This document shows positions 20,635 to 54,910 of a stretch of 64,000 bases of DNA, in pieces. Numbering within the stretch: the stretch's first letter is position 1; each line of letters starts with the position of its first letter. The position numbers were made by a program, and so were the translations under genes. The notes under the pieces were generated by a model. It saw nothing but the letters and a program-made list of their open reading frames with translations. It did no database searches and had not been told where the DNA came from. This DNA is from Absidia repens (Eukaryota > Mucoromycota > Mucoromycetes > Mucorales > Cunninghamellaceae): assembly GCA_002105175.1 (NCBI GenBank), contig MCGE01000002.1, positions 1,488,001 to 1,552,000 of the forward strand, given 5' to 3'.

Positions 20635-22164
20635 CATACTCCCTATATGTATATATATGTAGCTCAGTTAATCTAGTTTAGCCAAGTTTTTTTCTGTGTC
20701 TCTATTTTTATGGGGTTTTGATTTTTATTATATATTATCACCGTTTAATTGTTTATTATATTTTATATTTTATTACAATAAAAAAAAAAGCTTATGTCAA
20801 CCAATTGTCCACAAAGAATATTGGTGATGATGAGAGGGGGGAAGAGGTGATGGGCCGGTTATAACTCAGATTACAATATTTTTGTTATGAAGTGTCATAC
20901 TATATCTAGAAATACAATGGCCTTCTGGAACACTTTATTTTATCTTATTTTATTTTGCCTCATCGAACTGAAGAAGTTTATCGGTGAATTGGTCTGAGCT
21001 GCAGTTCAGCAAGGGACTTTTGGTTTTTAAATCCCGCCCACGTGAAATATTTATTTTCTCCTTCTCGCCTGTTTTTTTTTTGGCTCTCTTTCTTTTGATT
21101 TTTTTTTTTTTTTTTTTTTCCTTCACCAGTCAAATTCTATAGTGTTATATTGGACTTGGAATAGTATCAGGACTAGTTTAGAAGCGTTTCCAGCTCAGGG
21201 AGTACAACAGGAATGGGGAAATCCTTTCATTTTGGATACAGGATTTAGAACCACCATTAGCTAGCTTTTTGGAACCGTCATTAGCTTAGTTTAGTATTAC
21301 TTTTGTCCGTAGTTTGTATCTTCATCTCAATAAATTACGTCACTATTTATACACTCTAATGAAAATTTTCCCATTAGTCTCATTCATATCTTGTGTTATA
21401 GATCCCTTATTTTTACTGTCTTCACCTACCCCCTTTTTGATTAGTGTTTAATAAAATATATCCTTTGATCTTCCACATACCATGTACTTTACACTATACT
21501 ATATTCCTTTTTCACTCGTACCTTTAGATTAGTATTGACCATTCTCCAGAGGCCATTGAACTCACTGAGGAGCAACTCGGCTTGATTTAGTTTAACCTCT
21601 CTGATGTAGCATAGTTTACCACTAATTGTAAAATAGTTTGTCATTCAACATAGAATAGCTTACTCTACGTCATGCTCCTTCTACAGCAAGTTATCCCTCT
21701 CTTCATTATATCCATCAACCCCCCCCCTCCTACACACTCCAGCACATTCTAGCTACAATAAAAATCACATCTTGAACCCCATCTTTTTTTTTTCAACATT
21801 GACAGCATCTGACCCTATATTTGATTATATATAATTTTTGAATAAAACAATGATTTCTCTAAGATTTCTTTGGAGAGCAGAAACGACGGTCTTATGTGGC
21901 GCTAAAACTACAGTACTATGCAGGGCAAATAATAACAATAAAAAAAAAGCAATGGTGGACGCATAAAATTGGTAAAGCACATTCTGTTTTTTAAAAAAAA
22001 ATTATACAGTGGTTTTTATTTTAAAGACAAACTAATACAAAGAATAAGGGGGAGAGGGGAATAAATACTATAGTGTCAAACAACCAAAACAAAAACCAAA
22101 GGACGGGTGAGAGGAAAGGGGCTATACAAAAAAAAAAAAAGCTAGTGGTGATGGGGTAAGTGTT
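20635..22164. other. Spacer holding 3' UTRs and repeat copy A1
   Basis: The spacer lies between a plus-strand and a minus-strand gene end. It contains the AATAAA at 20777-20782, the dispersed repeat A1 (from about 21034) and T/C-rich sequence. Open frames are short and unconvincing. Confidence 0.55.
21034..21560 (+). repeat. Dispersed repeat family A, copy 1
   Basis: The copy starts AAATCCCGCCCACGTG, then a T/C tract, then the conserved core with GGACTAGTTTAGAAG, TTTCCAGCTCAGGGA, TGGGGAAATCCTTTCATTTT and TTAGCTTAGTTTAG, and an AATAAA-like CAATAAATTACG. The same order is seen in copies at about 28850, 38978, 49065-50170 (minus) and 54595. Similarity downstream of about 21560 is too weak to call. 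Confidence 0.8.
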
Positions 22165-25100
22165 TCAGGACAGCAATGAAGATGGGGTGCATAAATAAGC
22201 TAAAAGCTGAATAACTTGATCCACATTGTTAATATAATACTGAGCTTCGGTGCTTCGGGACCCAACAGTGCAAGTAACCACAGTCGCTTTGGAAATTGTC
22301 TGTTTGTTCAAAAACGAAAACATATCTTCGTCCGTCCGATCATCCCCAATGGATAGCACAAAATCAGGCTGAGTATCTTGAAGGACCCTGTTCGCGATGC
22401 TACTTTTATTCACCTCATGCGGCATAACCTATGAATTAAGACATAATAAGGAAGCAGTTGTGGTGAGAATAGCTGTAAGCAATAAGCAACCATACGTGGA
22501 AAGATAAACATCAAGATAAATACACTACCTCTATATTGGTTCGTCCGGCCACCGCATGAACAGCGAAGTTCTTGTTGACTGAGTCGGCAATATGATTTTG
22601 ACATTCTGCCGCTTGCCATGCACTAAATGAAAGAGAACAATTTCAATACTAATAGATTGTGGTAAATTTCTACATTGGTTACTTTTTGCTTACACATATT
22701 GAGCATCAGGCCCGGGCGCTGTGCGATAGTGCTATCAAGAGAAAATATTAAAGTTAGTGAGTTAATTATGCTTATTCCCATTATTGATCTTTTCTTCTGA
22801 ATAATTACCCAAACAATAGATGATTCTTTTGTTTCAATATAAGCACCGGGAGTTCTTTCTGTATAATATTGGAAGATCTAAACAAAAGGTGATCAGTCTC
22901 ATTTGCAGAGCACTTCCCCTTTTTTTTTTTTTTTAACTGTCTTACTTCTTTGACGGCTGGTTTCCAGGATAGGTCGATCTGGTCGAACAAGGATTGCCAA
23001 CCTTCACCTCTTGGTTTGATATAGTATCCATTTTCAGCGCTACACAAAAAAGGCAATCAATTGATCTGCTTCAAACACTCTCTGTAGATACATACCTGAG
23101 ACCCAAATTTGGTACTTCACCGAGATCACGCTCCACCTCCAGCTTGGTGCGACCAGAAATGACATAAACAGCATTTCGAGGATCACTGGCCAGCTGTGTC
23201 AAAACGCGAATCAAGCGTTCCAGTTCTTTGGCACTGGCAATTTTTCCATGTGAGACCAAAGTACCACCATAATCGAATAGAAATCTATGCAAAACATTAA
23301 AAAGAAAAAGTCAGGAGTGGGAGAATATTAGTATAAAATATTGATACTTTTGTCTCTTTTATATATATATATATATACTTACACTCGTTTTTGGGTTGAT
23401 TCGAATGCTTCCTTTAGTCGATCAATTTGTAAAGGTGGAATTTGAGCAGAGAAGCGACGACCAGTAGCGCTGTGGACCTTGGATAATTCTGAGATAATGG
23501 TTGCTGCAAAGTTTTGTGCTGAGTTTGCTTCAATGCTCTTATATAGTTCGTTCCACCTTGATGCCTTTTCTTCATTGGACATGGATAATGCTTCGTGGAT
23601 CGCATCCCCGATTTGCTAATTTATAAGAGAAGAAATGAGTGCCATTATTCTTTTGTTTTTGTTTGTTTTAGTATGTCATACCCGATAGTCCCAGGGATTC
23701 ACTCGTAGGCATGCCCCGAAGCTTCCATAAGTACCAGTAAACTAGAATATCAATCAGTTAATAATTGTAAAGCGAGATATAATTATGAGGATCCAAGCTT
23801 TCCTTTTTTTTTTTTTTTTTTTTACTTACTTCACTTAATATCAATGGATTGTGTTGATGTTCTTGGCATACAATGTATTCATGGGAAGTCAGATTCATAC
23901 CATCGCGTAAGGGAGTAATCAAAGAGGCATCGGCAGATGTCAGTAAAGCCAGGTACTGAGGGAAAGAAATATCTTGATGAAGAAAAACAATTGGTTGATA
24001 TGAGATATTGCTGAATTTGGAGTTCACCCGTGACACCACATCCGAAATATGGGCCCGCAGCTCGTTTTGTTCTGAGGTAGATAGTGCTATTTGTATCAAA
24101 ACCACCTTCGCGATTTAAGAAAAAGCAATGTGAGTGAATAAAACTAAACACAACAATAAAAGTTATATCCTTCCCTTTTCTTACCTTCCCACGCCATTCT
24201 GGATGTCGAATCAGAAATTGTTCAAATGCCAGGAGCTTTTGTCGTACACCCTTAACGTAATCCAATTTATCCCGAGCCACAATTAGCTTCTTTCCAGCGT
24301 ACTTTTCCTTCAGCATGGCCATCCAGCTTGCAACGTCAGGATTTTTTCTAATTGTAGGGAAAAAAAAGAAGATAAATTGACACGATCATATATAGATATT
24401 TCTATATATATGTATACCTCTTTTTGTTGAGCGCAGAAATATCAATGCCAATAGGATACATGCCAACAGCCACATAGTGAGAATCCATTTGAATGCCCGA
24501 CGGAGTCGTATCCAAAGAGAGTATCCGAGAACAGGTTTGTAAAAAGTGTCTTGCAAAGGAATACGTTTGAAATCCAATGAGATCAGACTGGAGCATCCCT
24601 TCCAATAACTGTTTGCGAGAAGGTAAGCACCGAAACAATTCAGACGATGGAAATGGAATATGCATAAAAAACCCAATTATGGCATTTGGTAGCTTTTCAC
24701 GTAGCATACCAGGCAAAAGCATCAAATGGTAATCGTTCACCCAAACTACAATATAAGAAGTATAACTAATCCATATTCTACCATCTTCACTCTTATTTTG
24801 GGTGGTTTTCTCTATGATTTTACTTACTAATATCGCCTTTTTGGTATAGACCAGCTATCGCGTCAGCAAATTCTTGGTTGAGCTTGATATAGGATTTCCA
24901 TGGTTCATTGTAATGCATCTTGTTTTGAATATCATCTTGCACAACATAATGGAAGTAAGGCCAAAGAATCTATAATAACAATAATACAAAATTGACATCA
25001 ATAAGTGCAACCCTCGCCCCTTGTGCTTTTGAAACTCTAGATGTTTACCTGTTTACAATATCGATTGTAATGACCATCAAATACAGCATCAGTAGGAATG

Positions 25101-25738
25101 ATAGGATATGATTGATACTTGTCGATCAAAGTGCGGCTGATTTTTTCCTTGGTCGAAGGAAGGAGGCAATCCATCGAAGAAGTGCCTAGTGTCCCCACCC
25201 AAACGTGTTGATCTAAACGATGACGTACAGAATGAATTGCGTTTTGAAGTCCAATATTCCCAGATATACAAGGCTTTATCTTCCAGTTTACCCCCGAGTC
25301 ATTGTGGTCATCGCTGTTCAGTGCTACTCCAACAGTATCCGCCGCCCTGGTTGAATCCACCGTGTCTGAGTTGTTGTCAGCTAGGGGAAAGGAACCTGAT
25401 AACGTTACATCTGCCTTGGAGTTGTCATTTTGCTTTTGCTGAGATTCCAACGTAAAAAGTTCTTGTTCACTTTGATTGAGGACCGGTGTGAGGTGCTTTT
25501 TCTGTGCTGCCAACGTATCAATCAAGTTCCTTGGGCCAGTATTGGTGTTTGAGACTGCAGAGACTTCGATAACAGGTTCAAGGCTTGTAGTTGTTGTTGT
25601 TGTGGTGGTGGTGGTGGCGGCAGTAGAAGAAGTTGGTGGATTGAGAGATTCCTTTTTTTCAACCAATTCAATATCAACAGTATAAGGAAGGAAGAAGGAT
25701 GCTGTAATGACTCTACTAGTGGTAATTCTATTTGTCAT
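22165..25738 (-). CDS. Trehalose-phosphate synthase/phosphatase-like protein (TPS2/TPS3 type), probably a non-catalytic phosphatase
   Basis: About 13 exons from the ATG at 25738 to the TGA at 22167-22165. After a Thr/Ser-rich N-terminal region comes a glycosyltransferase-20 domain: WVNDYHLMLLPGMLREKLP, the sugar-nucleotide motif DKLDYVKGVRQKLLAFEQFL and LRDGMNLTSHEYIVCQE. A HAD-type trehalose-phosphatase domain follows: FLFDYGGTL, VYVISGRTKLEVERDLG, SAENGYYIKPRGEGW and SIGDDRTDEDMF. Active phosphatases read DYDGT; here the second Asp, the general acid/base, is Gly (GGT codon near 23270). The synthase motif has Lys where catalytic synthases have Arg (DRLDY). Together this suggests a regulatory subunit like yeast Tps3/Tsl1 rather than an enzyme, although the first (nucleophile) Asp and GDD are intact. 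It would act in the cytosolic trehalose synthase complex. Start choice: the only ATG opening the RITTSRVITASFFLPYTV segment. Confidence 0.88.
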
Positions 25739-26996
25739 GATGGAATGGCATATAAATATAGAATATGTTTATTGATGGTTTAAAGAAGAATTTTGGGTAA
25801 GAATAGAATATTGAAGGGGTTTAATGTAGAAGGGGGAGATGTGGTGAATGCGTATCTCCTTGTGATTGACTATTCACAAAAACGAAGAGCCAAAAAGGTT
25901 TTTTTTTTTTTTCTGGCCTTGGACAATTCCCGCTGTCCAGGTCAAGTGAATCGGCCCGCCAGCGGTAAGCGGGATTTGAAATGATTGAATGGAGCGCTCT
26001 TCCGATTACAACCGAGGATCAAAAGGAAATTCAATCATGCAAAATACTAGTGACCGTACCCTGTGCCAATCATGTTCTGCTTTTACATTTTTTCTATTGG
26101 TGATAATATGAAAAATGAAGCTGTTGAGAGTGCTAGTGTTTAAATCATCTTTGTGTCGTTGGCCATCATCCTATCATGCAAAAAATGATGGATCAGCTTT
26201 GTTGGGTTCACACCTGTGATATTAAGTATTAACAGAACTTGGGTCACATGCAAAAAGTGAGAAGCTCAAATCCATAGAATCCAGCACTTCTTAACTTACC
26301 ATCGGCCATAAATATTTATCCGAGCTTTTATTCCTGGATTAAAATCAGGAACTGGCGGTGGCAATCTATTTTTTTCGGCGACATTTAGGTGTTGGCTACT
26401 GAAGGTATGAAATATACGTCAATTATAAATTTCGAAGAAAATATATTCTGTGAAAATATCTGATTGAATACCTGAAGGCAACAATAGTCTAATAAATGCA
26501 GGCCCAATTATTAAAAATATACTACAATGGAGAGTAGGTAGAATATATAGAGTGTTAATGTAGTGTAGAATTGAATCCCGATTATTTTTCCGGGAATGAA
26601 TGCTGAACGCCATCATGCTGGACGGTTTTCAACCAGGGCGTACTTTTGATTTCATAAAATTTTCGGTTGAGATTGAGGATGAATATTTTCATGTATAACC
26701 TTGGAGACCGAAACTACCTCCATATACAAAGGGGAAAAAATTGATACAACCAAGGGCGCATACTAATTTGTTTTGAGTACTGTTGCAACTTGTACCTTTG
26801 GAGTTCATCTGTGTTCTAGCACTCGTGTGAATTTTTAGTCGAGAATCTGGACAGACATACAAGCAGATTCTCAAATATCGGCGGCGTTTAAATCACAGGT
26901 CGCGTTCTGTACGACGTTGTCGATCAAAATTAAAAACGGCCAGTTTTCTTTTTTCCTTTTCCTGGCCCCTTCAAATATTAATTAATCCTATCAATC
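25739..26996. other. Divergent promoter region, trehalose gene and MDH pseudogene
   Basis: This spacer of more than 1.2 kb has no convincing coding sequence. A minus-strand TTTCAAATCCCGC (25968-25980) lies about 230 bp upstream of the trehalose gene start. A pyrimidine-rich leader (about 26945-26970) directly precedes the MDH-like ATG at 26997, so the pseudogene kept its promoter-type leader. Confidence 0.55.
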
Positions 26997-28223: not shown

Positions 28224-28849
28224 ATATGGTCTAGTCTACCTTAGTTTAATTTTTATACATTCTTCCCCATCGTTTGGTTTTTACCACCGTGTCATCATCC
28301 TCTTTTTAGCTTATATTATTTGTTGTCCATTTTACACAATAAAAAAATTTACGTACTTTTACAAACTACTGTCTTCGATTTTCATAATCCATGAATTTAA
28401 CAATTAAACTCAGCAAGAACCACATGTACATCAATTATTATTATGGGATATTTTTTTTTATCTTCTCATAAATAGGACAACTATATTATATACATTATCA
28501 CCACTTCCGCAAGTTTTATTATGTACCTAAATATTATTGTCATCGTCGTTCATAGGCAACAAGCACTTTTTGCTACTGCTCAGTAACGCTCACCACCAGT
28601 ACTCTATATTAAACCGTGATACCGATAAATACGGACACATGCAACCTTTATTAAAACACTATCTTCTATTGTAGAATAAAAAATATCCAGAAAGAGATAT
28701 CCAAAAATAAGGTTGCGATATTTTAGAGGTACATCTATTGGTTTCACATGCGGCTAATAATTGGACACCCCTCCCCCCAGATAATGTATAGGCACTTTTT
28801 TTTTCGGGGCGGTGGACATTGCAGGCACTAAAAGTGTACTAAAACATTA
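28224..28849. other. Spacer between MDH pseudogene and repeat A2
   Basis: AT-rich sequence with the pseudogene poly(A) signal at 28338-28343. No coding segment is seen. Confidence 0.5.
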
Positions 28850-29890
28850 AAATCCCGTCCACGTGGCGAACTTTTTTTTTGCTTACTCCTTTTTTTTACC
28901 GTCTCTCTTTTTTCCTTTTTTTTTTTCCTCTTCTTTTTTTCCTCACCATTTCAACTTTTTTAGAGCCATGATAATCTTAGGTTAGTGTTAGGACTAGATT
29001 AGAAGGGTTTTCAGCTCAGGGAATACAAGATGCATGGGGAAACCCTTTCATTTTGGATCTAGGATCTGAAACCTTCATTTGATAGTTTTTTTAAGCCTTC
29101 ATTAGCTTAGTTTGTCCATAGTTTATATCTACACCTGAATAAACATGTCTCATTTTACTTGCATTAATGAAAACTATCCCATAAGTCTCTCATGGTTTGT
29201 TTGTGTAATGGATCCTTTTTTCCATTGCCCCTTAGATGTATTGTTTTACTTCAATAAAGGGTATCCTCCGGTCTTTCTCTTGCCTATACAGCACACATAC
29301 CCTTTTTACAATTTTCCCCTTAATTTAGTGTTGGCTATTCTTTTAATCCCACATTAGTCGCCCTCAATCTTCCTGCAATAGATCTTTTCATCAAATCCGT
29401 TGTTGCAATGAATCCCCATCCATAGCTTAAAGATCTATTAGTATATACTAATATACTTCAATAAAATATTTCCTTTTTACTTCTTCTGACACATAGTATA
29501 GTGAACAATGTCTTTATTATAACTGCTTTTTTGAGTGCCTTATTATGCTCTTGCTTTCTAGTTTACCACTATGGCCACTTTTTTCCCGTAGTAACTCCGA
29601 GGAACTGGTTGACAGTACTAGATTACTTACTATCAAAGATAGCTATGGTCATGCTCGATAGATCATACAAATGGTGCTAGGGTGTAATGTGCATGTGGCT
29701 GCCGCTATAGGACATGCTACACTTCTCTCTAGCATATCTATAACCACCCACATACCTAACGGCTGCTTTTCGCAGTTCTAAACTACTTGATATGAAACGT
29801 AGCCATATCCCCGCTCTATCGTTCATATTTATCAACTCGGGCTGTATATACCGCCACCGTAGCGTTTGCTAAACTGGACATATTGTATAT
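28850..29890 (+). repeat. Dispersed repeat family A, copy 2 (about 1.05 kb)
   Basis: Begins AAATCCCGTCCACGTGG, then pyrimidine tracts, then GTGTTAGGACTAGATTAGAAG, TTTTCAGCTCAGGGAATACA, TGGGGAAACCCTTTCATTTT, TTAGCTTAGTTTGTCCATAG and ACACCTGAATAAACATGTCT. Homology to copies 5 and 6 continues through a second AATAAA (TTCAATAAAATATTTCC, about 29458), the CTGGTTGACAGTACTAG segment and the end segment TAAACTGGACATATTGTATA. It has no long open frame. Confidence 0.82.
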
Positions 29891-30309
29891 AATTTTTTTA
29901 GGTCTTTGGAGGTACCTCTTAGCTTTTTTATTGATATTTAGAGGTACCTCTTGTTGTCATATGTGTCCAAATTATCAACTCCCACAAAAAGTAAGACATT
30001 CATTGATAAAAAATATTGTTTAAAATTGTTTTTTATTGATATATAAGAGGAAGGAATAAAAATAAAACTGTGAGCTAAGATATATTGAAAACTTTTAAAC
30101 TAATCCTATTTGATGATACAGTGGTTGCCGTCAGTGATAGACTACTTGCAGAGTTCGTGATTAGCTGTGGGCTTGAATCCAATCTACACTGGAATCCATA
30201 TAGACATCCTCTACATAAAATAAAATCAGTATCGGCTTGGCTTGATTAACTTTCCCGTCATCTCATAAAAATACAACATACGGATACTTTTGATCATCGA
30301 TTTTATTAC
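29891..30309. other. Spacer between repeat A2 and the CAF1 relic
   Basis: AT-rich. It may include the degraded 3' end of the CAF1 pseudogene, but similarity is too weak to place. A short direct repeat GAGGTACCTCTTAG / GAGGTACCTCTTGT lies near 29909-29955. Confidence 0.4.
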
Positions 30310-31230: not shown

Positions 31231-31457
31231 ATAAAAAAGGATGATATATATAGTTTATTAAAATAAATAAAGGCAAAGAATAAATTAAAATAGATAAAAT
31301 GAGAATGAGGAATATATGTACACAAAATAAAATAAAACTAAAAACTATATAATAATACTAAATAAACAGAACCAAGGAAGAGAGAGGAAGGGGGAGGAGA
31401 GGTGGAGTGGGGAGAGTAGGTCAATCACCAGCAGAGAGAGTAGGGGGAAATAAATCA

Positions 31458-32783: not shown

Positions 32784-32817
<34 letters not shown>

Positions 32818-34291: not shown

Positions 34292-34336
<45 letters not shown>

Positions 34337-34960: not shown

Positions 34961-35031
34961 GGTTGCATGGTCTAATGGTTATGACTCCAGACTTTGAATC
35001 TGGCAGCCCGAGTTCGATTCTCGGTGCGACC
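34961..35031 (+). tRNA. tRNA-Gln (anticodon TTG)
   Basis: The 71-nt cloverleaf has acceptor strands GGTTGCA / TGCGACC, the D arm around TCTAATGGTTATGA, and anticodon stem CCAGA/TCTGG with loop CTTTGAA, giving anticodon TTG that reads CAA. The T arm is CCGAG-TTCGATT-CTCGG. There is no intron, and CCA is not encoded. A TTTTT Pol III terminator follows directly (35032-35036). It is the only tRNA seen in the window. Confidence 0.95.
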
Positions 35032-35423
35032 TTTTTGCATCTATCAATGGGTGGTTTTGTTAGTTTTATTTTAGCCTAAATGTTACGGCTTCTTCTGGTT
35101 ACAAATTCATAGCTGGAAATTGTTTTTGTAGGTTTTATTTTTTTATAGTATGAGCACCAGAACGTTTTAGGATGATGTTACGGCTATTTTTGAGTTTGAT
35201 ATAGGCAGTAGCGGTGTTGATTCAACTGTTGCGGCTAAATTTGTGATTTTAGTCCAACTGGATTGTGTTTTTGTAGGTTTTTTATGTTTTTCTGGGTTAA
35301 ATAGGATGTCTTGAGTGATCCTTTGGTGTAGCTTTGATCGTTTGGAGCTTTGAAAAATAATTTTCTTCCTTCGGCGGAATTTGAAATATTTTGTTCCTGA
35401 ATCGGACAAAAATAGATTTGATA

Positions 35424-36779: not shown

Positions 36780-37060
36780 CTCTTCAATATACCCCACCAC
36801 AATAAAATACACTGTAATAGCTGTTTTTTTACACAAACTCATCCCTGTTTTTTTTTTTCTATCCATATGTAATACACATTCAATGAAGCTCATAATGTAA
36901 ACGTACACAGAGATACTAATTATAATAAAAAGAACATATTTATTCAGACGTAAATACAAACGATGACAAACTATTACTAAACTAATGAGTGCTAATCTAC
37001 TGAGGCTCCCAAATCCTACATCCAAAATGAAAGCGTTTTCCCATGATGTTTGTTTCGCGT
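36780..37060 (-). repeat. Dispersed repeat family A, copy 3 (partial, reverse)
   Basis: On the minus strand: CATGGGAAAACGCTTTCATT, GATGTAGGATTTGGGAGCCT, TAGCACTCATTAGTTTAG and CTGAATAAATATGTTC. This is the core and first poly(A) part of family A. The E-box end is not recognisable. Confidence 0.7.
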
Positions 37061-37425
37061 TTTTTAAAACGCCCCTAATCCACGATCCTAGAACACCAGT
37101 ACCCCAATGAGCCTTGCCATCATATCATTCAGACTATCATGAAGGAAAAAAATAAAAAAGAAAGAAAAAGAGTGGGAAAAAAAATGGGGGCCAGAAAAAA
37201 TAGAAAGCAAAATGCGGAGCCTGAATCATCCAGCCTTTTTTTTTTGTCGAAAAATCAGGGAAATGCAAAGAAAAATTAAATGAAAGGGGGATCGTCATAA
37301 TTATCGTAGTGCTCCGTAGTCCAACATAATTCTCATATTCGTTTATCTTCCAATGGAAAGACAGCTACAACACATACATAATCAAACTCTTGTTCTCTCC
37401 GCCTTTCAAGGAAGCTATAATTTAA
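37061..37425. other. Spacer inside the repeat cluster
   Basis: AT- and A-rich sequence with no gene and no further recognised repeat core. Confidence 0.4.
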
Positions 37426-38552: not shown

Positions 38553-38639
38553 TATCTCATACTTGATCTTTTTTTTTTATTTTTGAACAATGGGGGTATC
38601 ATCATTTAAAAAATACAATCTAAAACTTATGAGAGACGA

Positions 38640-38720
38640 TGTAAAATCAAAAAAGGCACGACAAATTTTATTCAGACAGAAATGTAAACTATGACAAATA
38701 AACTAAATTAACATAATGAT
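38640..38720 (-). repeat. Family A fragment, copy 4 (reverse)
   Basis: On the minus strand: TAGTTTATTTGTCATAGTTT and ACATTTCTGTCTGAATAAAA match the segment just before the first poly(A) signal of family A. Similarity outside this is not clear. Confidence 0.55.
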
Positions 38721-38977
38721 AGTACCATGACACCTATCTAACGATGAGGTAATTAGCAGTATATGTGCTCAAATGGGAAGTATGGGAGTCTAAACTAGTC
38801 GGAGTCGTTCCATGTTGATCTCAAAAGCATCATTAGAAGAGGGGACACCATGCTCCCAATGTCGAATGGTCTTACTTATTGCCATGAGAGATGAACCACC
38901 ATGTCGATGATGGTGTTAACTACTTTAAATAAAAATCGCAAACCAATCTCATGGGAGAGAATATGTATATATATTTA
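38721..38977. other. Short unannotated spacer
   Basis: No gene or recognised repeat core. It separates an inverted A fragment from the forward copy A5. Confidence 0.35.
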
Positions 38978-40028
38978 AATTCCGCCCACGTGAAATTTAT
39001 ATTTACTCCGTTTTTTTTTTTCTTTCTTCTTTTTTTTTTTTTTCACCATTCAACTTCTTTGAGGCCATGATGGACTTTGCTTAGTGTTAGGACTAGTTTA
39101 GAAGAGGTTCCAGAAGAGAGTTTACAAGATGCATGGGGAAACCCTTTCATTTTGGATCCAGGATTTAAATGCACCATTAGCTCGCTTTGGAACCTCCATT
39201 AGCTTAGTTTAGACATAGTGTATATATATATCTAAATAAAACATGTCTCCTTTTATCTGCCTCAACGAAAAATGTCCAATTAGTCTCTTCTTGTGTACTG
39301 TGCAATATATACACGTTTTTCACTACATCATTCCTTTCGTTTAGTGTTGACCGCTGTTGTGATTCAATAACAGATCTCCCTTTAATCTTCCTCATGTTTT
39401 GTACAATATACTACCCACCCCATTTGAAATTGTCTCTTTATATTAGTGTTGATTATTTATCAGATTGCGTCTTAATCTCTCCTTATGCTTTTGTCAATAG
39501 TCCTTTCACTAAATCCGTTGTTACCATGAGCCTTCTCATTTAGCATAGTACCTACCAATATGCTTCAATAAAATATCCCTTTTTCATAACCATTCTCTGA
39601 CTCACTTGATAGTGAAAAATTTGCTATTTTAGCTGTTTTGTGAGAGCTCTACGAAAATTTACGTTCTAGTACACCTACTATGACTATTTAGCACCCCTCC
39701 TAAAGATCCAGGGACTGACTGACAGTCTCAGATCATTTTCTACCAAAGATAACCATATTGCTGCTGGACCTATCATATAAAATAAATATAGACCATTCTA
39801 TGTATGCATCCTCCACAATAGATCACTTTGCACTACTTTCTATCGTATTTGTTTCTATTTACTCTATTCCTCCCCAAGGCGTAATGACTGGTTGACAGTT
39901 CTAGGTCACTTAATGTACAACATGACCATATTTCCCGCCCTATCATTCATTTCACTCAATCTATACCATGCTCTCAGCGTGTACTCCATTAAACTGAACA
40001 TTTTGTACACATCCAGCATGCTGTTTTC

Positions 40029-40070: not shown

Positions 40071-40074
<4 letters not shown>

Positions 40075-40381: not shown

Positions 40382-43300
40382 CTATTCCACATTGTCGGAT
40401 TCGATTTGATCAGGTAGAGATCTATCAATAAATAAAGAGGAGCCATTGTTTAAAGAGTACCTAACCGAGCGAGCGACATCTACCACAGATGAAGGGAGAC
40501 CTACCATAAAAAACCGAAAAATGAAACAAATACTCCTTGTATTATTTCCCCACCCACCACCCTTTTACCTGCAATTTGAGCCACTTTGAGCCCATGTGAT
40601 TGTTTACACACCCCAGGTTCCACTCGATGCAAAAAGGAGAATCCGTACTGATCTTCATGAAGACTGGTTTTGTAGCATTTCAAATTCGCAAATGACGCCA
40701 CGGCACCCGCTAATTCATGATAGTGTGTTGCAAAAAGCGTCCTACATCCCACCCTTCGACTCAAATCATCCAAAATAGCATAGGCTAACGCAAACCCATC
40801 CGATGTAGATGTCCCACGCCCAACTTCGTCCATAATCACGAGTGACTTTGATGTCGCATGTTTCAATATCGTCGCCGTTTCCGTCATTTCAACCATAAAC
40901 GTCGATTGATCCTGAGCCAAATTATCCGCTGCGCCAACACGACTGAAAACCCAATCCGTCAAACCGATCGTTGCATGCTTCGCTGGTACAAAACTTCCCA
41001 TATGCGCCATGACCACGATGATTGCATTTTGCCTGAGAAACGTGCTTTTCCCTCCCATATTCGGACCAGTCAATAGCCAAAGCCGGTGGCCTTCCCGTAA
41101 ATCACAATCGTTCCTGATAAAAAGTCGTCCTTTCTTCGCCAAATGTGTTTCCACCACCGGATGCCGTCCACTTACAATTGTTGTATCCAGGTTGCTGCTG
41201 ATGCTGGGTCGCGTCCAATTGTTTTGTTTGGCGAGCCAGGAAAATGTCGTCAAGGTATCCAATTGTGCAAGGGCGTGACAACTTCGAATGATGCTGCTGC
41301 TTTCGGCAAGTAGTTGATTCACCACCTGTTCAAACACCTGTCCTTCAATCTGTACAATGTGAGCCACCGTGTCGTCCAATTTCATTGACATGTCCGTCCA
41401 TGAAGGTAGATGATATCGTCGTTTACTTTTCGTTTGGTGTACAAGGGTCAGTGATTGGAGTTCGCAATACGCTTCCAGTTTCTTTGATGGTACTGTGTTC
41501 ACTTCGACCACGTGTCTATAGGGAGCTTGTGAAACCAGACAAAGTGATCTACCACATACAGTTCGTAATTCGTCTAGGAGCGTACTTTTGCGCTGTTCAA
41601 GTTCTTTTAAATCGTCGTATAGTCGCCGTAAAGTCGAGGTATAGTTTGGGTTGACGTAGCCATATCCATCTTCCCTTTGTTGTTTGTCGAAGGTATCATC
41701 ATCGCCATCATCGTCATTGTCGTCTTTTGCTGTGTTTTCATCCACTGAGCTACGATCCACAAACGCCCGCTGTATTTCATTGATCAGACTTTCATGAGGA
41801 TCCAATGTCGCCAATAAAGAAACCAGAGGTGGAGGTAAAGCGGTTTTCTGAAACAAAAGCTGGATGGATTTCATAGTATTGAGAGTGTTGTTGATTTCAA
41901 TTAAATCAGAGTACTGTCCTCGCCGCATTGCCAATCGTTGGAGCGCCCGTTGTGCATCAGTACTTTGTTTCAGTAGATAGCGAACATCGTCGACGGTAAA
42001 TGGGTTTTTGTAAAAATAATCCACAATTTCCAAACGGGTTTGAATTGCTTGATGAGATCCAAGGGGACACGATAGCCATTGCGAAAGTAATCGAGACCCT
42101 GCGCTTGTTGTTGTACGATCGAGCATTCCAAGTAAGCTATCTTGCCTTCGTCCATCTTTCAGCCCTTTGAGCAGTTCCAGAGAGGTCATTGCAGCACTAT
42201 CAATACGGAGCGTGTCTTCCACCTTGAACGCTATCGGTTGTAATAGCCTTGGTTTTCTACCGACATGTGTTTGATCAATATAGTGTAGAAGAGCCATACC
42301 AGCAGCCATAGACTGATCAGAAAATATATCCCAATTGAATTTTGCTGATGCCATTTTGATATCCCAAGTTGTGTCATCTTTACTGATCATAGATTCCAGT
42401 GTAGCTTGGCATTGAGTAGCGTCAAACGTAGTTTGGGGTTGGTAAGTCAGTGAGATTGTAGGGTCCAATGAAAGTATGCGAGTGACAGGATCGAATGAGT
42501 CGTCATCCAGCGAGACTGCTTCGTGGAAATTGTTACCATCACCAGTAAAAGAAGAAGAACCCCGATCCATCCACTGAGGTAGAATGACCTCCCTAGGGCG
42601 AATACGTGTAATGTCGTCCTTGAATGCCCGCAGTGTTGATTGTTGCAACGTGAATTCCCCCACAGATAAGTCCACCCATGCCAAACCAATAGGTGATAGA
42701 TCACTTGTCAAGTCCTTTGTTGGGAGCACAGCCAATAGGTAGTTGTTTGTATAAGCAGACAGGTAGCGTTCCTCAATCACAGTTCCTGGAGTAATGATTC
42801 GGGTGATATTTCGTTGCATTCCAAGGATAGATCCATCGTCACGCGTGCAGGTTCCCAGTTGTTCGCAGAGTGCGACTCGACACCCCAAGCGATTCACCAA
42901 TATATCTACATAACGATCCAAGGCCCTTGAAGGAAAGCCAGCAAAATCAACCACTTGACCAGTAGCCACCTTTTTACGAGTCAATTTCAAATCCAAGAGA
43001 GATGCATAATTGGTGGCATGGGCTTCGTATAACTGGTCAAAGCAGTAATTGTAAATTAGTAAAAAAAAAAAAAAGAAGAAGTCCATTTCGTAAACAAACT
43101 TACTTCATAAAAGTCACCAACTTGAACTAATAGCACACATAAAGGGTGCTTTTGGGTATATTCACGCACAGTGTCTAGTACAATGGAGCCACTTGTTTTT
43201 TGCTTCAATTCCAAGGACGTCAAACCATCAATAGAGGAAGGTTCGGCTGTGTTTTTCTTGGGCTGTTTTGACTTTTTGTTGAGTGGCTGCAAGAGTTGAT

Positions 43301-46912: not shown

Positions 46913-47583
46913 ATTGAACTGTGGAAGAGTAAAAAAGTAGAATTTGGTTAAAGAAACAAGGGAAAATAAGAAAAATACACTAGTGAATTTTTTTAAAAAA
47001 AACCCTTGACATTTTTCGGTAACTGAAAATACGTGATCAGATGAGTGCGGAAAGCAGATAGCAGCGATTTAGTTTCTTTCAATCGCTACACACCGGTCAA
47101 AATTTTGGTTTCAGTTCTATTTTTTTTCGCACTAAAACAAGCTGCAGATCAGAGCAGGGGCAGGGGATTTTATTGAGAATTAACATAAATAAATAAAAAA
47201 AAAAAAGGCGTCGTGAATCAAAACAACGTGGGTAATAAAAGACAAGAGAATGATGTATTTTTTTTTATTAAAGGGCGTGTCAAAAATAGGGTACATTGGG
47301 AAGAATTGTATAAAACAAATAAGCATGAAATGATAACAGCAACATAAAAAATAATGATAATAATGGAAATATAGAAACAATAGTAATGATAGTAATGGTA
47401 GTATAATAATGATGATGATGGTAAAATATATATATATATATATATATAATCTAGTACAGGATATGTAAATAATAAAATGTACAAGGAACTAAACAATAAT
47501 ATTCGTGCAGGGGAAATAATGAAGGTATATATTGGATGGGTGGGAGGTGGTTATAGACTAAAAAGGCTACATATAAATCATAT
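46913..47583. other. eEF2 promoter and nucleotide-sugar transporter 3' UTR
   Basis: Contains the eEF2 promoter (about 46913-47160), then AT-rich 3' UTR of the next minus-strand gene with TA and ATT/ATG simple repeats (about 47340-47450). No gene is seen. Confidence 0.5.
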
Positions 47584-48811: not shown

Positions 48812-49064
48812 TAGGAAGCAGGAAGACAGTGAAGGATGGCAGGGAGTAGGGAATAACGAGTGATGGAGGGCAAAATAGAGTGGGGGGGGGGGAGGGAGGG
48901 GGAAGAAAAACGAAGTTTAGAAATAAAATCAGTACAGTCTATTAACCTTAAATTGGGACGACGGGTGAGGATAAAATAAAATTGAGATGCGGGGTGTAAC
49001 AGGGCAAAAAGAAACTGAAATGAAGGAGAACAAAAATTTAGGCGGAAGATATTTGAAAATAAAA
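48812..49064. other. Promoter of the transporter gene
   Basis: G-rich on the plus strand (a G/A run near 48882-48903 includes ten G), so the minus strand has a C/T-rich tract upstream of the start. No gene is seen. Confidence 0.45.
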
Positions 49065-50170
49065 GAAGAAAACAAGCTGGATATATATTATATGTCCAGT
49101 GTAGCGGAAGTTACACTAGTGGAATGGTCTAGGTTGACTTATATAAATAGTAGAGCGGGAACAGGGTTACGTTTCATATCAAGCGACCTAGAACTGTCGA
49201 CCAGTCGCTAGGCCTCAGGAGCAAGGAAAGTGGTCATAGATAAGCGAGAAACAGCGCAAAATGCTCTATAGCAGGATTACATGCATAGTATGGCCTAGGT
49301 TTACTTTAGATGGTAGGTACAGCAGGAATATGACTATCTTAATAGAATGCGAATTTAATATTGTCATGCACCCCCGGGTCTTTGGCGGAGGGGAAGTTGT
49401 CATAGTGGGTGTACTAGAAAGTAAACTTTGATATGGTACTCACGAAACAGCCACAATAGCAAAATTGTTCTCTATCAGATGAGTCAGAGGATGATTGGAT
49501 GATTATGAAAAAGACATATTTTATTGAAACATAATGGCAGATACTAAAACTAAAGGAAAAACGTTCATCGTAACAAGGGATACAGTGGATGGGCTATTTG
49601 GCAAAAGCATGAGGGGAGACTGAAGTGAGCTCTGAAGAATATTCAACACTAATATAAAGGGACGGTTGAAAAAACGGGAACTAATTTACTGTATAAGATA
49701 TGACAAGAATTAAAAGGTGTTCTGTTATTGAATCACAACAGCGGCCAACTCTAATCAAACGGGTTGATGGTAGTAAAAACATGTATCTATTGCACAAGGC
49801 ACGAGAAGAGTCTAATGGGACATTTTTCAATGAAAAAAAACAAAAACTGACATATTTTATTCAGAAGTAGATATAAATTGTGACGAGCAAAGACTAAACT
49901 AAACTATTGAAGGCACTAAAAAGCCAACTAATGGTGCCTCCAAATCCTGAATCCGAAATGAAAGGGTTTCCCCATGTATGTTGTAATCTCTTTTCTGAAA
50001 ACCCTTCTAAACTAGTGCCAACACTAAGTAAAGTCCATCTTGATCCCAAAGAAGTTGAATGGTGAAGAAAAAAAAAAAGAAGGAAAAAAGAAAATGAAAG
50101 AAAGAGATAGCGGAAAAATAAAAACAGGGAGAAAAAAAATTCACGTGGGCGGAATTTGAATGGGTTATTT
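49065..50170 (-). repeat. Dispersed repeat family A, copy 6 (about 1.1 kb, reverse)
   Basis: On the minus strand it starts AAATTCCGCCCACGTGAATT, then pyrimidine tract, CACCATTCAACTTCTTTGGG, CTTAGTGTTGGCACTAGTTT, TGGGGAAACCCTTTCATTTC, TAGTTTAGTTTAGTC and TTCTGAATAAAATATGTCAG. Then follow TGTTGTGATTCAATAACAGA, TATGTTTCAATAAAATATGT, CTGACTCATCTGATAGAGAA, ACTGGTCGACAGTTCTAGGT and ACACTGGACATATAATATAT. These segments match copy 5 in order over the whole length. Open frames on either strand are short. Confidence 0.85.
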
Positions 50171-51102
50171 TTTGTCTGTTGTGTGGATTTGGTTTGCGAT
50201 TTATTTATTTTTTTAAACAAGCAAAACCAAACATCTACACGATAGTTTTATTCACATAAATATTTTTGAAATCAACACGGAGCGACTGCTCCTATTTTAA
50301 CCCACCCCGTCACTGTAGAATAATTTGTCACCCACATCAGGATAGCTTGCCCGCTTTGATTGGACTAAACTGTCTTATGTTATGTTTGTTCTACAACAAG
50401 ATACTCCCCCTACACTCCCCTCTGAGTCACATATACCAATACTTGCCTCATATTTAGATAGATGTCATGATATAATATTATAATATTGTAGTCTACAAGT
50501 CACAGTGTATATTTTCACCTGATTAGGCTATATCTTGTCATTTATTTTTTACTCCACTTTTAGTCACATTTACCTCCAATTGCCTCATCTTTAGATAGAT
50601 GTCATGATATATCATTATACTAATTTAGTATACATGTCATGACGTATATTTACACCTGAATAAAACATATCTTGTCATTTATTTTTACATCGTTCCTTAT
50701 ATGTTTAATTTGTCTCGTCGAATAGATATATCCGCATTGTTAGAGCAATACATGTCAGGTAGAAAAAAGGAGGTGCCGTGTATGTCTATGCGTGTGTTCG
50801 ACAAAGGCTAGATATGAAACGGCTTCGCCCAAATTATACTGACCTTCAGGACTATGAGAGATTTCTTGTATGGTTTTAAAAATGGTCATGGCGGTGTAGA
50901 AAAAAAATATCACGAAGAACGCTTTAAAAAGTAAACAGCGAGACGTGCACAAAAATAGGAGAGTCGCATAATTTTTTTTTTTTTTTTTTTGGTCTCGGCG
51001 CCTCATCCAAAACCGACCAGCTTCAAATGCCTATGACTTTTTCTTCCATGAAATAAATCCATCAACCACGTAACTTTGTTCCATTTCATCTTTATTATCA
51101 TA
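50171..51102. other. Gene-free stretch around the tandem duplication
   Basis: AT-rich with T runs (about 50971-50990) and the tandem pair listed separately. No gene is supported. Confidence 0.45.
50427..50698 (+). repeat. Tandem duplication, period about 137 bp
   Basis: Units start at 50427 (TCACATATACC) and 50564 (TCACATTTACC). They share TTTAGATAGATGTCATGATA, a TATATTTTCACCTGA / TATATTTACACCTGA segment and ATATCTTGTCATTTATTTTT. The second unit carries ACCTGAATAAAACATATC, which resembles the poly(A) segment of family A, so the array may derive from that family. Confidence 0.85.
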
Positions 51103-51600
51103 TTACGTGGTTGAAATGCTTATCATAAGTAAGAAAACGCTATCCCCAGCATACTCTCTGCGACCTATTTTTTTTTTTTTATGTTCTTCCTGAATTCTAC
51201 CATAAATCTTCCAAAAATTTGATTTCCTTTTATGCTCAAACATGTATAATACAGGTATCCCAAGAACGTTTAGTGCCATTTGTAAGCCAAAATATCTTAA
51301 TATTGTTAAAGTAACATCCACTTTTTCCCAAAAATAGTAAGCGGAAATTATATATTTTTCCATTTCTTGCTCGCCAAGGACCCGCTCATAGTGCAGGGCC
51401 AACTTGATATTGATTTCCAGGCGTTGAATACACGCACCGTTGATATTAATGCTCTGAGGCTGTATGGCTCAAATGTGCTCTGCTAATCTCAATTACAAAC
51501 CACCTTTGCAATTATACCGCCTCTTAAGACAAAAATAATCCAAGATTTCAGCAGATCGACGACTCCACAACAAGGCACCAGACTGTATGTCTCAAAGGTT
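51103..51600 (-). pseudogene. Unidentified coding relic
   Basis: The minus strand reads in one direction through SGALLWSRRSAEILDYFCLK, two stops, then GACIQRLEINIKLALHYERV, GEQEMEKYIISAYYFWEKVD and TLTILRYFGLQMALNVLG. The composition (Trp, Tyr, Cys, charged helices) is protein-like, unlike the AT-rich surroundings, but stops interrupt it, there is no start, and I do not recognise the family. It could equally be an unrecognised exon cluster of a small gene. Confidence 0.3.
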
Positions 51601-51710
51601 GGTCGAACAAGCTAGGCATACCGGAGTATTAAATTCATAGTTTAAAAAATAAAAAAAGCCTTTTCTATTTTTTTGTGGCTCTTTGACTTTTTTTTTGATC
51701 TACTTCACAT

Positions 51711-54062
51711 ATGGGTATTCATGGTCTAGCTTCCTTTGTTCAAAACTATCCCTCGTTGAATTTACAAAAAGCATGGGCTTTCAAGGATGCGTCTCACAAT
51801 ACGGATCATCTTATTTTTGATGGTAATGCCTTTGTGTATCACTATGCATATCTTCATCGTGAACACTGGACACATGGAGGTAAGATCTGACAGCACAACA
51901 CAAACAACACGGCATTAGTTGAACATTTTTTTTTAGGACAATATAGATACATGGCGCAAGTTATTCAGCATACAATCACGGCCTTAAAACAAGCAGGGTT
52001 TGCTCTGACGTTCTTATTCGACGGTGCCCTCCCTCAGGACAAGGAAAACACAAGGATCAAGCGATACAAGGACTATGTAGAACGGACTGTTTTGACTATG
52101 GAAAACCTCTCTCCTATTAATGCCGCCAACAAGAAACAATCAACTGCTTTCTTACTCGAAGGACCTCAATACCGTAATGATCTTTATGTGATTCCGCCAA
52201 TGACTCTAGAGGTATGCATCCAAACTCTTTATGAATTGTCCGTCCCTGTATATATTTGCTCTGGTGAAGCTGATAGTGTGGTGGCTCAATATGCGGAAGA
52301 AACCTGTGGCTATATTGTATCCAAAGACTCTGATATGCTTGTCTATCCAAGGTGCGGCAAAGGCTATATTCCCTTAGATACGTTATCTGTGCCTTCCTTC
52401 AATGACTTGGCAACAACAGCAACACTGGAGACGACGACTGATATATCTATCTATGCCATTGTATACCAACCTCAAAATCTGGCCAGCCTTCTTCGATTGG
52501 ATTTGCATATGCTTCCATTGTTTGGTACTTTGATGGGAAACGATTATATGAATATACAGGTGATCAAGTACCCAATCATGGCGTGGTGCTCAGAAAATGC
52601 CAAAGCGTCTGGTCACCAACTAGGATCCTCTCAGTGGCCGAAGTGTGTTGCTGAATTTATACGACTTATGGATCAACGTTCTGCTGCTCCCGGAAAGTAC
52701 TCCTCCATTATCTCTACTATTGTGTCTGAACTGGAACCGGTCATTTTGGGAACCAACATGTCCAAGAAAAAAGAAAAAGTGAATACTCTGGCACAAAATA
52801 TTACTGATTCTGTGCAACGGTATATCTTTGAAGACTTATCAGCATCGACACCAACTCAGTCACCAAACACCACCTCCACCACCCTTAGTCGTCATATGTC
52901 AACACATCAGTATAGTAGGCACGTCCTCGATTTATGGGCAACACAGTCCTTTTGGGGTAGCATTTTTTTAGAGGATTTGCAACAAGAATCAAGCTGGTGT
53001 GTTAGCAGGTCTTTACGACAGGCCATGTACCGATTGGGTGGAATGGATCAGATCAATGAATACGTACGGGAAAAACATCATCTAACGCATCATGTCATCT
53101 CTGCGGCGAACGACTTGACTCTCAATAGCAACATGAACTTCAAACAGCGCCAACGTTTGTTTTTACAACTACATCACACCAGCACACCACTGATCGATAC
53201 ATTAATCAACACGGTGGCCTCACCTCTCCGACCTCTTATTGTCTGTCTGCGCTATTTTATTCAACAATGTATCAACACAGGCAATCCCCTAGCGGACCAT
53301 GAAGTGGTGGCTATTCTTGTGGCTAGCATGATCGATTTGGTGCCTACGGTTATGCCCAAGGAATTTAACGAATCAGACGGACCACCTTACTTGACAGCGT
53401 TGGGATCAGCAATCTTCACGAACAAAACATCATCATCCGCACCAACAACAGCAAACAATGGACAAGAAACCGAAGAATTAAAAATACCTTCCTTGAAAAA
53501 ACGGTCCATCCAACTGGCATCGCAGTGGCAACATACCCTTCTCAGCTCGCAATATTTATCCCAGGTACTATTATCAACAGGTCAGGATACCCAAGGTATT
53601 TGGCAGCATTTACAACAATCCGGTGTTTTAGCATCAATGTATAACGGTCTGGTGATGCACACATGTTTGCAAATGGGACGACTTGGGGCAAGCATGGGTC
53701 GAATGATGCTGGGTGCTTCGACAAAATGGATGTTTCTCTTTGGCACGCTCTATGACTTAGTGACAGGAAACAGTAATGGAGGCATGGGTAGGCAAGTGGA
53801 AAAGGTGTTTGATTACAAGTTTTCCAAGGTGACTTGCTTGATGGACATGGAACAACGACGATCAACCATCTCGTGGATGAAATCTCGGATACTCAAAAAA
53901 ATAGAAAAGCAGGACCGGCGCATGATGATCAACAAATCAACAACAACATCACCACACACCAAGAAATCGATGAAAATGACGGCGGATGGTGGCGGTGTAC
54001 GCAAGTCCAGTGGGAATGCGTTTAGTGTGCTTAGCTCTGGGTGTCACTTTGATGATGAATAG
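51711..54062 (+). CDS. Asteroid-family (ASTE1-like) XPG/FEN-type nuclease domain protein
   Basis: Two exons (51711-51879, 51937-54062) give 764 residues. The start MGIHGLASFVQNYPS is typical of the Asteroid branch of the FEN1/XPG superfamily, in which the initiator ATG precedes the conserved N-terminal Gly. Metal-binding acids are visible at HLIFDGNAFVYH, LTFLFDGALPQDKENTRIKR, VYICSGEADSVVAQYA and YIVSKDSDMLVY. Human ASTE1 is a structure-specific endonuclease acting in the shieldin branch of double-strand break repair; the fungal role is not known to me. The C-terminal half (Ser/Thr linkers, helical segments) is not recognisable beyond this family, and the tail is basic. A poly(A) signal lies at 54096-54101. 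Confidence 0.85.
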
Positions 54063-54329
54063 CTAGCTGTCTTTTGTACCTTATTATTTTACAAGAATAA
54101 AAAATTGTGCAAACAATAGCATCATTTACACTTGGCGTAGGGAAGGGAAAAAAAAAACGGTTATGCTGGTCAAATGCTTTTTTTTTTTTTTTTTTTTTTT
54201 TGGGAGGTGATCTCTATGTTACTCGCCTGCTTTAATGTAGATTTAGTTTAGCTTACCTCTAGTTTTAGATAGCATCTAATTTACAATAATAAATAGTCTG
54301 GTACTCTACCGAAGTTTTGGGAATTATTT
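54063..54329. other. 3' UTR of the Asteroid-like gene
   Basis: Contains AATAAA at 54096-54101 and a T run at about 54178-54201. No gene is seen. Confidence 0.5.
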
Positions 54330-54470
54330 GATTTATTGGGTGTCAGGTGGCAGGTGCGGGATTGAAATGTGGGGTTTGATGGGACTGGGTATTAAACGAC
54401 TTTGTCATTTCGCACTTTACAATGCAGCTCCTTTAGGCCCAACAGTGCTTAGTACTACATCGGTGAGGGG
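54330..54470 (-). repeat. Dispersed repeat family B, copy 5 (reverse)
   Basis: On the minus strand: ACTAAGCACTGTTGGGCC, AAAGTGCGAAATGAC, CCCATCAAACCCCACATTTC and GACACCCAATAAATC, in the same order as 37557-37693. It lies 125 bp before a forward family A copy, mirroring the B(+)/A(-) pair at 36621-37060. Confidence 0.72.
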
Positions 54471-54594
54471 ACCATTGTGTTGAAAAAAACAAGAAAAAAA
54501 AAAGGGAAAAGGATTAGACCACTTGTCTATTTCAACTATGATGGACAACCACCATCGCACTCGGTCCAGAAAAAAAAATGGATGTGGTGTCAAC

Positions 54595-54910
54595 ATTCAC
54601 ACTCCGCCAATGTGATTTTATACTCATTTTATTTTTTGTCATTTACGCTTTTCTTTCTCTTTCTCTCTTTTTTTCCCTTCATTAAAACTTCAGTGGAATG
54701 ATGGTGATCTTGGATTAGTACTAAAACTTGAATCAGGGGCATTTTGAAAAATGCAATATAAAACTCATGGGGAAACCCTTTTATTTTGGGTTCGTGATTT
54801 AGGACCGGCAATAGATTAGCTTCCTCTTAGAATAGTGTCATCTGCTTAGCTTAGTGTTCGTTTGTCATAGTTTATATATATACATATCTGAATAAAAAAT
54901 ACCTTGTCTC
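54595..54910 (+). repeat. Dispersed repeat family A, copy 7 (partial)
   Basis: CACTCCGCCAATGTGATTTT (diverged E-box), pyrimidine tract, CTTGGATTAGTACTAAAACT, CATGGGGAAACCCTTTTATT, TTAGCTTAGTGTTCGTTTGT and ATCTGAATAAAAAATACCTT. It ends soon after the first poly(A) signal. Confidence 0.75.

Follow-up and report, generated by a model that had tools for sequence, protein, structure and literature searches.

Mobile elements that have died are expected to lose their promoter and poly(A) signals in step with their remaining sequence. A high repeat content is known in the Mucorales (for example 35% in Absidia glauca, as given in PMC4133162); no description of the repeat reported here, family A of the soil fungus Absidia repens, was found in the open-access literature searched. 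Solo LTRs carry a promoter and an AATAAA followed by a T-rich stretch and lie dispersed in both orientations, and the AATAAA is given among the most conserved LTR features (PMC2664473). Family A has all of these properties as far as sequence goes, namely a promoter-like head, an AATAAA followed by a T-rich stretch, and dispersal in both orientations. It is unlike solo LTRs in a sharply conserved 26-bp core piece, in a second AATAAA 320 bp on, in an inverted left arm found in part of the copies, and in that no paired copies around a coding interior were seen in limited tests and no TG...CA with a short target duplication was recognised.

The T+ SINEs of mammals (B2, Dip, Ves) are short noncoding units in which AATAAA signals matter for the family; they are described as Pol III units of tRNA origin that bear an A-tail and occur in mammals only (PMC8466645). 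Family A is alike in having an AATAAA near the 3' end, but in many copies a tail follows, and it is unlike T+ SINEs in its CACGTG/pyrimidine head, in the lack of an Rfam match in the window copies and in the lack of an A-tail at the ends inspected. MITEs and fold-back elements are likewise noncoding, present in thousands of copies and furnished with inverted repeats, and family A also forms palindromic pairs (at two loci). The inverted pair of family A, however, is not terminal: it pairs the left arm with the 3' end of the core, with the tail beyond. The ends of one copy (A2) form a direct repeat, and no short target duplication of the MITE kind was recognised.

Copies in the window and in the genome

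The 64,000-nt window (the whole stretch of DNA analysed) holds units in which a head with CACGTG is followed by a pyrimidine tract, a core of about 210 bp that closes with AATAAA, and a tail whose own AATAAA, the second, lies about 320 bp beyond the first; some copies also have a weaker left arm, about 450 bp long, 5' of the head. Copy A1 (21026..21560, plus strand) consists of a head (21026-21114), a core (21121-21343) and a partial tail to 21560. Copy A2 (28716..29965, plus) has its head at 28841-28936, core at 28943-29151 and tail at 29153-29891; its ends, inferred from relatives, lie at about 28716 on the left and at 29899-29900 or up to 29965 on the right. An imperfect direct repeat is found there, with a left member at 28717..28750 and a right member at 29933..29963 containing the palindrome AGAGGTACCTCT (29940-29951), and its score of 30 compares with 22 at the 95% level and 32 at most in 500 shuffles. 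Copy A3 (plus) has a left arm at 38621..38933, a head at 38973..39037 with a pyrimidine tract, a core at 39042..39249 holding the mini-ORF, the conserved 26-bp piece and the first AATAAA (39235-39240), and a tail at 39251..40018 with an AATAAA at 39567-39572. A convergent ORF at 40501-43104, presumably MutS-like, has its 3' end about 480 bp from the end of this tail. Copy A6 (49074..50169, minus) is made up of a head (50169-50073), a core (50067-49849) and a tail (49838-49074), and its left arm (50175..50708) contains a 137-bp tandem duplication at 50414-50686. Two copies are divergent: A4 (36912..37228, minus; core 37112-36934) has a degenerate head without CACGTG and retains AATAAA, and A7 (54592..54904, plus) has a head without CACGTG (54592-54672) and a core with AATAAA (54681-54904).

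The sequence-only reading had listed about seven copies, of which six are borne out. The supposed reverse copy at 38640-38720 is not a separate one, being the inverted core 3' end (38660-38746) in the left arm of A3, and the reverse copy placed at 36780-37060 exists with a true span of about 37228 to 36912. Part of the copies exceed the length of about 1.1 kb that had been given for the longest ones, through the left arm 5' of the head. CACGTG was located in all four heads for which it had been claimed, at 21039-21044, 28860-28865 and 38987-38992 on the plus strand (A1, A2, A3) and at 50142-50147 on the minus strand (A6). The hexamer is not enriched in the window as a whole (7 found vs 7.26 expected), and its fixed place is what matters. 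The mini-ORF of about five codons also holds good, as an ATG stands near the core start in 54 of 61 matches with a complete 5' core; the frame has at most 8 codons in 46 of these 54 and exactly 5 in 26. A like tract ahead of host genes, also proposed, was glimpsed in ORF translations and may be real.

Family A is confirmed as a genuine dispersed repeat of A. repens, and a far larger one than the window alone could reveal. With up to 3 mismatches allowed, 4,491 places (2,227 + 2,264) in the 47.4-Mb assembly match the 26-bp core piece, against 0 and 0 for its reversed sequence. The piece is exact at 963 places, and the two counts together imply about 94% identity per site in the piece and some 4,800 copies. 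A genome search with A3 gave at least 42 matches (40 of 2,572 candidates scored). A profile search recovered the six window copies, starting at 21026, 28841, 38972 and 54593 on the plus strand and at 50166 and 37228 on the reverse, with E from 1.6e-43 to 3.1e-244, values that are partly by construction since the seed included window copies; independent support comes from the window self-comparison, the genome search and the pattern counts. Searches for the exact 26-mer in viral contigs and in prokaryote ones gave 0 and 0. The copies are not evenly spaced along the chromosome, the exact ones on C1 fitting a random arrangement (CV 0.99; random 0.80-1.22) in a sample of 74 positions, one of them 25 bases off.

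The copies are old, because the top-scoring relatives of three tested copies, with 40 candidates scored per search, are 73-83% identical: 83% over 250 bp for A3, 83% over 1 kb for A2, and 73% over 1 kb for A6 (highest over half the unit, 77%). Terminal branches make up 91% of the tree length among 58 sampled copies. When 60 loci were compared all against all, no young copies were found; two local palindromes excepted, the best match was 86% over 237 bp.

A protein-coding family was rejected, as there is no conserved open frame in the core. The longest plus-strand majority frame there is 44 aa, for which no homologue was found, and the same search gave no spurious annotated ORFs of the family in sister species; 22 codons from ATGCATGGGG are kept in 28 of 55 copies, and no third-position pattern was seen (0.847, 0.905, 0.872). 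A structured RNA was rejected on the absence of covariation, a weak fold and the absence of an Rfam family: across 70 core copies, three pairs of columns stand clearly above all ten shuffles and none of the three is complementary, the single-sequence fold has a z of -1.15, and the Rfam gathering scan of the window returned one tRNA at 34961 and nothing in the family A copies.

Retention of CACGTG and AATAAA in drifted copies

The first AATAAA is exact in 0.91 of 81 matches and ranks second among 1,021 hexamer windows (mean 0.24). The second (column 614) is exact in 0.80 of 56, above all 29 other A/T-only tail hexamers; A/T-only hexamers of the tail average 0.32. In a decay test, in which the expectation is letter-matched and set by each copy's own decay, the first AATAAA was intact in 64 of 72 matches vs 16.6 expected (z ~14), the second in 45 of 57 vs 12.6 (z ~10) and CACGTG in 47 of 59 vs 8.1 (z ~15), on a calibration that is overdispersed (sd of z 1.94 over 233 tail hexamers). 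A third AATAAA (column 423) is barely above its surroundings (24 of 67 vs 14.7; 4 of 11 in the strict set described below).

Most matches were chosen via the core, so conservation is overstated there (columns 171-205 score 0.949 in centre matches vs 0.858 in the strict set). The strict set comprises matches that were not the reason for fetching their locus, minus their continuations and palindrome arms. In it the first AATAAA is exact in 16 of 18, the top of 581 windows, although about six of the 18 are short and probably inverted left-arm ends; the two exceptions, A2 and A4, come from gaps in the alignment, and the letters of both copies read AATAAA. The decay test on this small set gave 10 of 12 vs 2.4 for the first AATAAA, 5 of 9 vs 1.4 for the second and 5 of 7 vs 1.0 for CACGTG. 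The strict set thus agrees with the larger one, most weakly for the second AATAAA and with no weakening of the first. Genome-wide and free of alignment, AATAAA stands at the expected spacing in 775 of the 963 exact-core places, vs 35 in a displaced window. The neighbouring consensus hexamer TATGTC, an imperfect control in being polymorphic (CATGTC in A2 and A3), is found in 270, and the second AATAAA, which has no displaced-window control of its own, in 299. CACGTG and two AATAAA signals are therefore kept beyond the decay of the same far-drifted copies.

Origin and possible role of the family

The explanation that we favour, at about an even chance, is that family A is an old, abundant, mobile-derived non-autonomous element with its own Pol II-type noncoding cassette, the signals of which would be maintained copy by copy. 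From the window, the family had been read as laid out like a short Pol II transcription unit, and this prediction is strengthened by the retained CACGTG and two AATAAA. A CACGTG-binding factor would act at the head, and transcription would start near TTCACCATTC, within the pyrimidine tract or immediately 3' of it. The RNA would contain an ORF of about five codons followed by many TAG stops, and would be cleaved and polyadenylated after the first AATAAA (~220 nt), with back-up polyadenylation after the second (~540 nt). The absence of CACGTG from A4 and A7 counts against this explanation.

A mobile origin is likely, and is favoured by one subfamily with common ends: A2 has six relatives at 78-83%, of which four start at query 617-630 and three end at 1800-1801, and these ends, shared on several contigs, show that this subfamily moved as a unit. 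The earlier choice among a solo LTR, a non-autonomous element and an ncRNA family is thereby tilted towards a mobile source; on the solo LTR, the evidence comes down on neither side. The main rival, possible though doubtful, holds that the copies derive from an old retroelement group of many lineages, as its solo LTRs or as some other portion of it (head as U3, core as R, tail as U5), with signals selected before insertion and copies now decaying neutrally. The order of promoter, AATAAA and T-rich stretch, the movement of the A2 subfamily as a unit and at least 150 reverse-transcriptase (RT) matches in the genome agree with it, and with very many long-lived lineages conservation could predate insertion. 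Yet for the three copies tested (40 candidates scored each) no relative matched the greater part of a copy at more than 83%, which leaves little room for pre-insertion conservation. The family was not seen as the LTR of RT elements, none being found within 1.5 kb of the 20 RT loci examined, where the sole matches were two short ones (34 and 29 bp), one of which falls in a T-run past the tail. Same-strand neighbours on C1 are not in excess (31 of 73), and inspection by eye of the inferred A2 ends (28716, 29899-29965) recognised no TG...CA with a short target duplication.

It is improbable that the element is a bidirectional 3'-end barrier between convergent genes, its AATAAA signals (forward in the right arm, inverted in the left) stopping the neighbours' read-through. 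The inverted core end in the left arm fits this (left-arm-model matches overlap a core on the opposite strand in 64 of 101 cases and on the same strand in 0), as does the inverted TTTATT, the best-kept left-arm stretch (hexamers 0.46-0.52; mean 0.11). The neighbours of 60 copies, called crudely as ORFs within 1.5 kb, also lean this way (the upstream ORF is on the same strand for 23, divergent for 9 and absent for 28; the downstream ORF is facing for 9, on the same strand for 4 and absent for 47), but the same bias is expected if insertions survive mostly in 3' intergenic regions, and the retained CACGTG and pyrimidine tract are left unexplained. Least credible is a neutral repeat whose A/T-rich motifs seem conserved through slower A/T mutation or through alignment and copy selection: A and T sites are better kept (in the initial stretch of the tail ~0.80, whereas C and G stand at 0.67-0.68), some of the sampling went through the core, and the decay calibration is overdispersed. 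Against this, the column-614 AATAAA exceeds both the other A/T-only tail hexamers and the letter-matched, copy-specific expectation, the strict set and the alignment-free counts both uphold the first AATAAA, and a mere A/T effect is disfavoured.

Under the favoured explanation of a non-autonomous element with its own cassette, the copies would be transcribed, and selection would have acted on single copies after insertion. Signals kept in far-drifted copies suggest that these may still be read and may be of importance to the fungus or to the element. The most likely reason would be that each copy is a complete self-terminating noncoding unit with a useful RNA, serving the host or rare further movement; a useful RNA is preferred to mere containment of read-through since the promoter box, and not the terminators alone, has been retained. 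A bolder form, which we hold only tentatively and think rather unlikely, is that about one individually selected Pol II noncoding unit per 10 kb makes up a genome-wide array, in use by the host, in which thousands of promoter-to-poly(A) cassettes derived from mobile DNA would act either by way of a UUAG-rich RNA that holds a minimal ORF of five codons or by being transcribed as such. Old copies, probably thousands of them, appear to keep their signals in a little-studied fungal lineage; if this is true, family A would lend itself readily to testing how frequently mobile DNA survives in the form of transcription units and what function these have between genes.

Size and anatomy of the family

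The dispersed repeat claimed by the sequence-only reading, family A, proved real and large when the 47.37-Mb assembly was searched (79 contigs, the window's own being 2.51 Mb, with the window at 1488001-1552000): allowing up to 3 mismatches, the 26-base piece of its core has 4,491 places (2,227 forward, 2,264 reverse), 963 of them exact matches, while the reversed 26-base pattern, used as a control with up to 3 mismatches, occurred at 0 places in the whole assembly. If all sites are taken as equal and independent, the ratio of exact to mismatched places implies about 4,800 copies with a per-site identity of about 94%. A search with 288 bases of A3, the copy at window 38973, gave matches of 76-83% on many contigs among the 40 candidates scored of 2,572. 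Along one contig, the 74 exact copies were spaced like random points, with no strand order seen (same-strand neighbours in 31 of 73).

The layout read earlier was recovered by aligning 35 and 30 copies and by a profile of 1,047 columns (101 distinct hits, some being fragments of a single copy): from 5' to 3', a head with CCCGCCCACGTG, a pyrimidine tract, TTCACCATTCAAC, an ORF of about five codons, a TTAG-rich core, the 26-bp piece, a first AATAAA at column 294, a T-rich stretch, and a tail carrying further AATAAA hexamers at columns 423 and 614. The 60 nt preceding the core have a mean pyrimidine share of 0.86, and a share of at least 0.85 is reached by just 0.5% of the window's 60-nt stretches on either strand. 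In agreement with the reading that no protein is encoded beyond the mini-ORF, no conserved reading frame was found in family A and the one frame searched had no homologue; complementary covariation was absent among 70 cores, and no Rfam family was found in the window copies.

Some copies have, upstream of the head, a left arm about 450 bp long, the far end of which repeats the core 3' end in inverted orientation. With a left-arm model, 48 of 101 hits extend into the arm and the remaining 53 match the far end only; of the 101, 64 overlap an oppositely oriented core and 0 a core in their own orientation. The stretch at 38640-38720, formerly counted as a family copy, is instead such an inverted far end. 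The majority sequence holds TTAG 19 times and its complement CTAA 0 times, and the arm has CTAA:TTAG of 5:1; the strand bias therefore flips at the head. A 137-bp tandem duplication, 81% alike, lies inside the left arm of the reverse copy A6 (window 50414-50686). The copies at 54593 (A7) and 37228 (A4, reverse) and the genomic locus L035 are divergent and without CACGTG; A7 and L035 share a head resembling ACACTCCGC, and in A4 and A7 a short inverted repeat, seen by eye, precedes the conserved piece.

Ends, age and retroelements

A 2.6-kb query around A2 (window 28841) found six relatives of 78-83% on five contigs with ends in common with A2: they start at query positions 617, 619, 623, 630, 698 and 934 and end at 1800, 1800, 1801, 1768, 1851 (second piece) and 1866, the left end being the sharper, and a seventh relative (72%) also starts at 617. 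This pattern looks like that of a unit moved whole. The A2 ends bear a 34-bp imperfect direct repeat with a palindrome (window 28717-28750 and 29933-29963), and the palindromic motif AGAGGTACCTCT lies close to both; allowing up to 2 mismatches, the window holds 5 matches to it, against 1.31 expected, and 3 of the 5 lie at A2. GAGGTACCTC was absent from the 84 loci in which it was sought, and the left flanks of A3 and A6 are unlike that of A2.

Copies have diverged far: in an all-against-all comparison of 60 loci the maximum was 86% over at least 200 bp, apart from two head-to-head palindromes whose arms are 98% alike, against at least 14% difference among other copies. The palindrome of L012 (494 bp; arms 1276-1767 and 2768-3259, starting almost exactly at the head) and that of L033 (411 bp; arms 609-1019 and 1283-1687) point to recent inverted duplication or gene conversion. 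The top-scoring relative of A2 was 83% alike over 1 kb. That of A6 was 73% alike over 1 kb, and further relatives reached up to 77% across roughly half of the unit. For the core region of A3 it was 83% alike over 250 bp, among the candidates scored genome-wide; for the A3 tail it was A6 of the same window, with 71% identity across 586 bp, and further relatives reached 77% over shorter stretches. Terminal branches make up 91% of the length of a tree of 58 copies, a share inflated by sampling 58 of about 4,800, so that the true terminal branches are shorter.

At least 150 reverse-transcriptase matches were found genome-wide (150 scored of 213 candidates), and none of the 20 loci examined had a family A copy within 1.5 kb. 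Several groups of these matches score identically and have open frames of more than 1,000 aa; young retroelements therefore probably coexist with the old family A. Among the open-access papers that literature searches listed, as judged by titles and the openings of abstracts, no description of family A was recognised.

Retention of the promoter box and poly(A) signals

The AATAAA at column 294 is present in 74 of 77 ungapped hits. With gaps scored as losses it is kept in 0.91 of 81 hits, which ranks it second among 1,021 hexamer windows, whose mean is 0.24; the AATAAA at 614 is kept in 0.80 of 56, as an isolated peak, and CACGTG in 0.75 of 68. Tail hexamers composed solely of A and T have a mean of 0.32, and the highest value among those free of AATAAA overlap is 0.49. 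In a decay test, in which the expectation for each copy was derived from its own identity at same-letter tail sites, the first AATAAA was kept in 64 of 72 copies (16.6 expected), the second in 45 of 57 (12.6), CACGTG in 47 of 59 (8.1), and the middle one (column 423) in only 24 of 67 (14.7). Calibration on 233 tail hexamers (every third column) gave a z of mean 0.10 and sd 1.94, an overdispersion that makes plain P values too bold; z was about 14, 10 and 15 for the first AATAAA, the second and CACGTG, and 6.3 for the top AATAAA-free tail hexamer.

A strict set of 25 hits was left after removal of the 60 hits through which loci were fetched, 11 possible continuations, 4 palindrome-arm hits and A3. 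There the first AATAAA was kept in 16 of 18 hits (about 6 of the 18 being short and probably inverted left-arm ends), the top of 581 windows (mean 0.22), and the two misses come from gaps in the alignment of A2 and A4, where the actual letters read AATAAA. The second was kept in 5 of 9, the middle in 4 of 11 and CACGTG in 6 of 10; the decay test gave 10 of 12 (2.4 expected) for the first, 5 of 9 (1.4) for the second and 5 of 7 (1.0) for CACGTG. Strict-set identity was 0.858 in core columns 171-205 (0.949 in the hits used for fetching), 0.696 in tail columns 316-700 and 0.673 in 701-1047; thus the core is kept better than the tail there too, less so than in the fetching hits. Free of alignment, AATAAA stood 78-106 bases downstream of the exact core at 775 of 963 places, against 35 in an equal-width displaced window; the adjoining consensus hexamer TATGTC was found at 270 and the second AATAAA, within a 31-offset window, at 299.

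Gene neighbours and interpretation

The surroundings of 60 copies were surveyed out to 1.5 kb for crude ORFs of 130 aa or more. Upstream, the neighbour was on the same strand in 23, divergent in 9 and absent in 28; downstream, it was facing in 9, on the same strand in 4 and absent in 47, and the core overlapped a crude ORF in 3. Copies with a visible neighbour tend to favour a 3' intergenic location. The window ORF at 51951-54062 and BCR42DRAFT_342717 of Absidia repens are identical. A tRNA-Gln gene (anticodon TTG) lies between copies at 34961-35032, and window 5017-5390, within an ORF, is a very long run of glutamine codons (CAA/CAG) with a period of 12 bases.

Copies with far-drifted tails mostly retain the promoter box and the first poly(A) signal, and often the second. 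The copies might derive from very many lineages, their signals having been kept before insertion, as in LTRs; we regard this as possible but doubtful, and it has against it a lack of close relatives, tested on just three copies. The retention of CACGTG is left unexplained if read-through is simply being contained, and a neutral dead repeat would not retain signals that persist beyond the decay of the same copies. The best reading, to which we give about an even chance, is that each copy would be maintained as a transcription unit.
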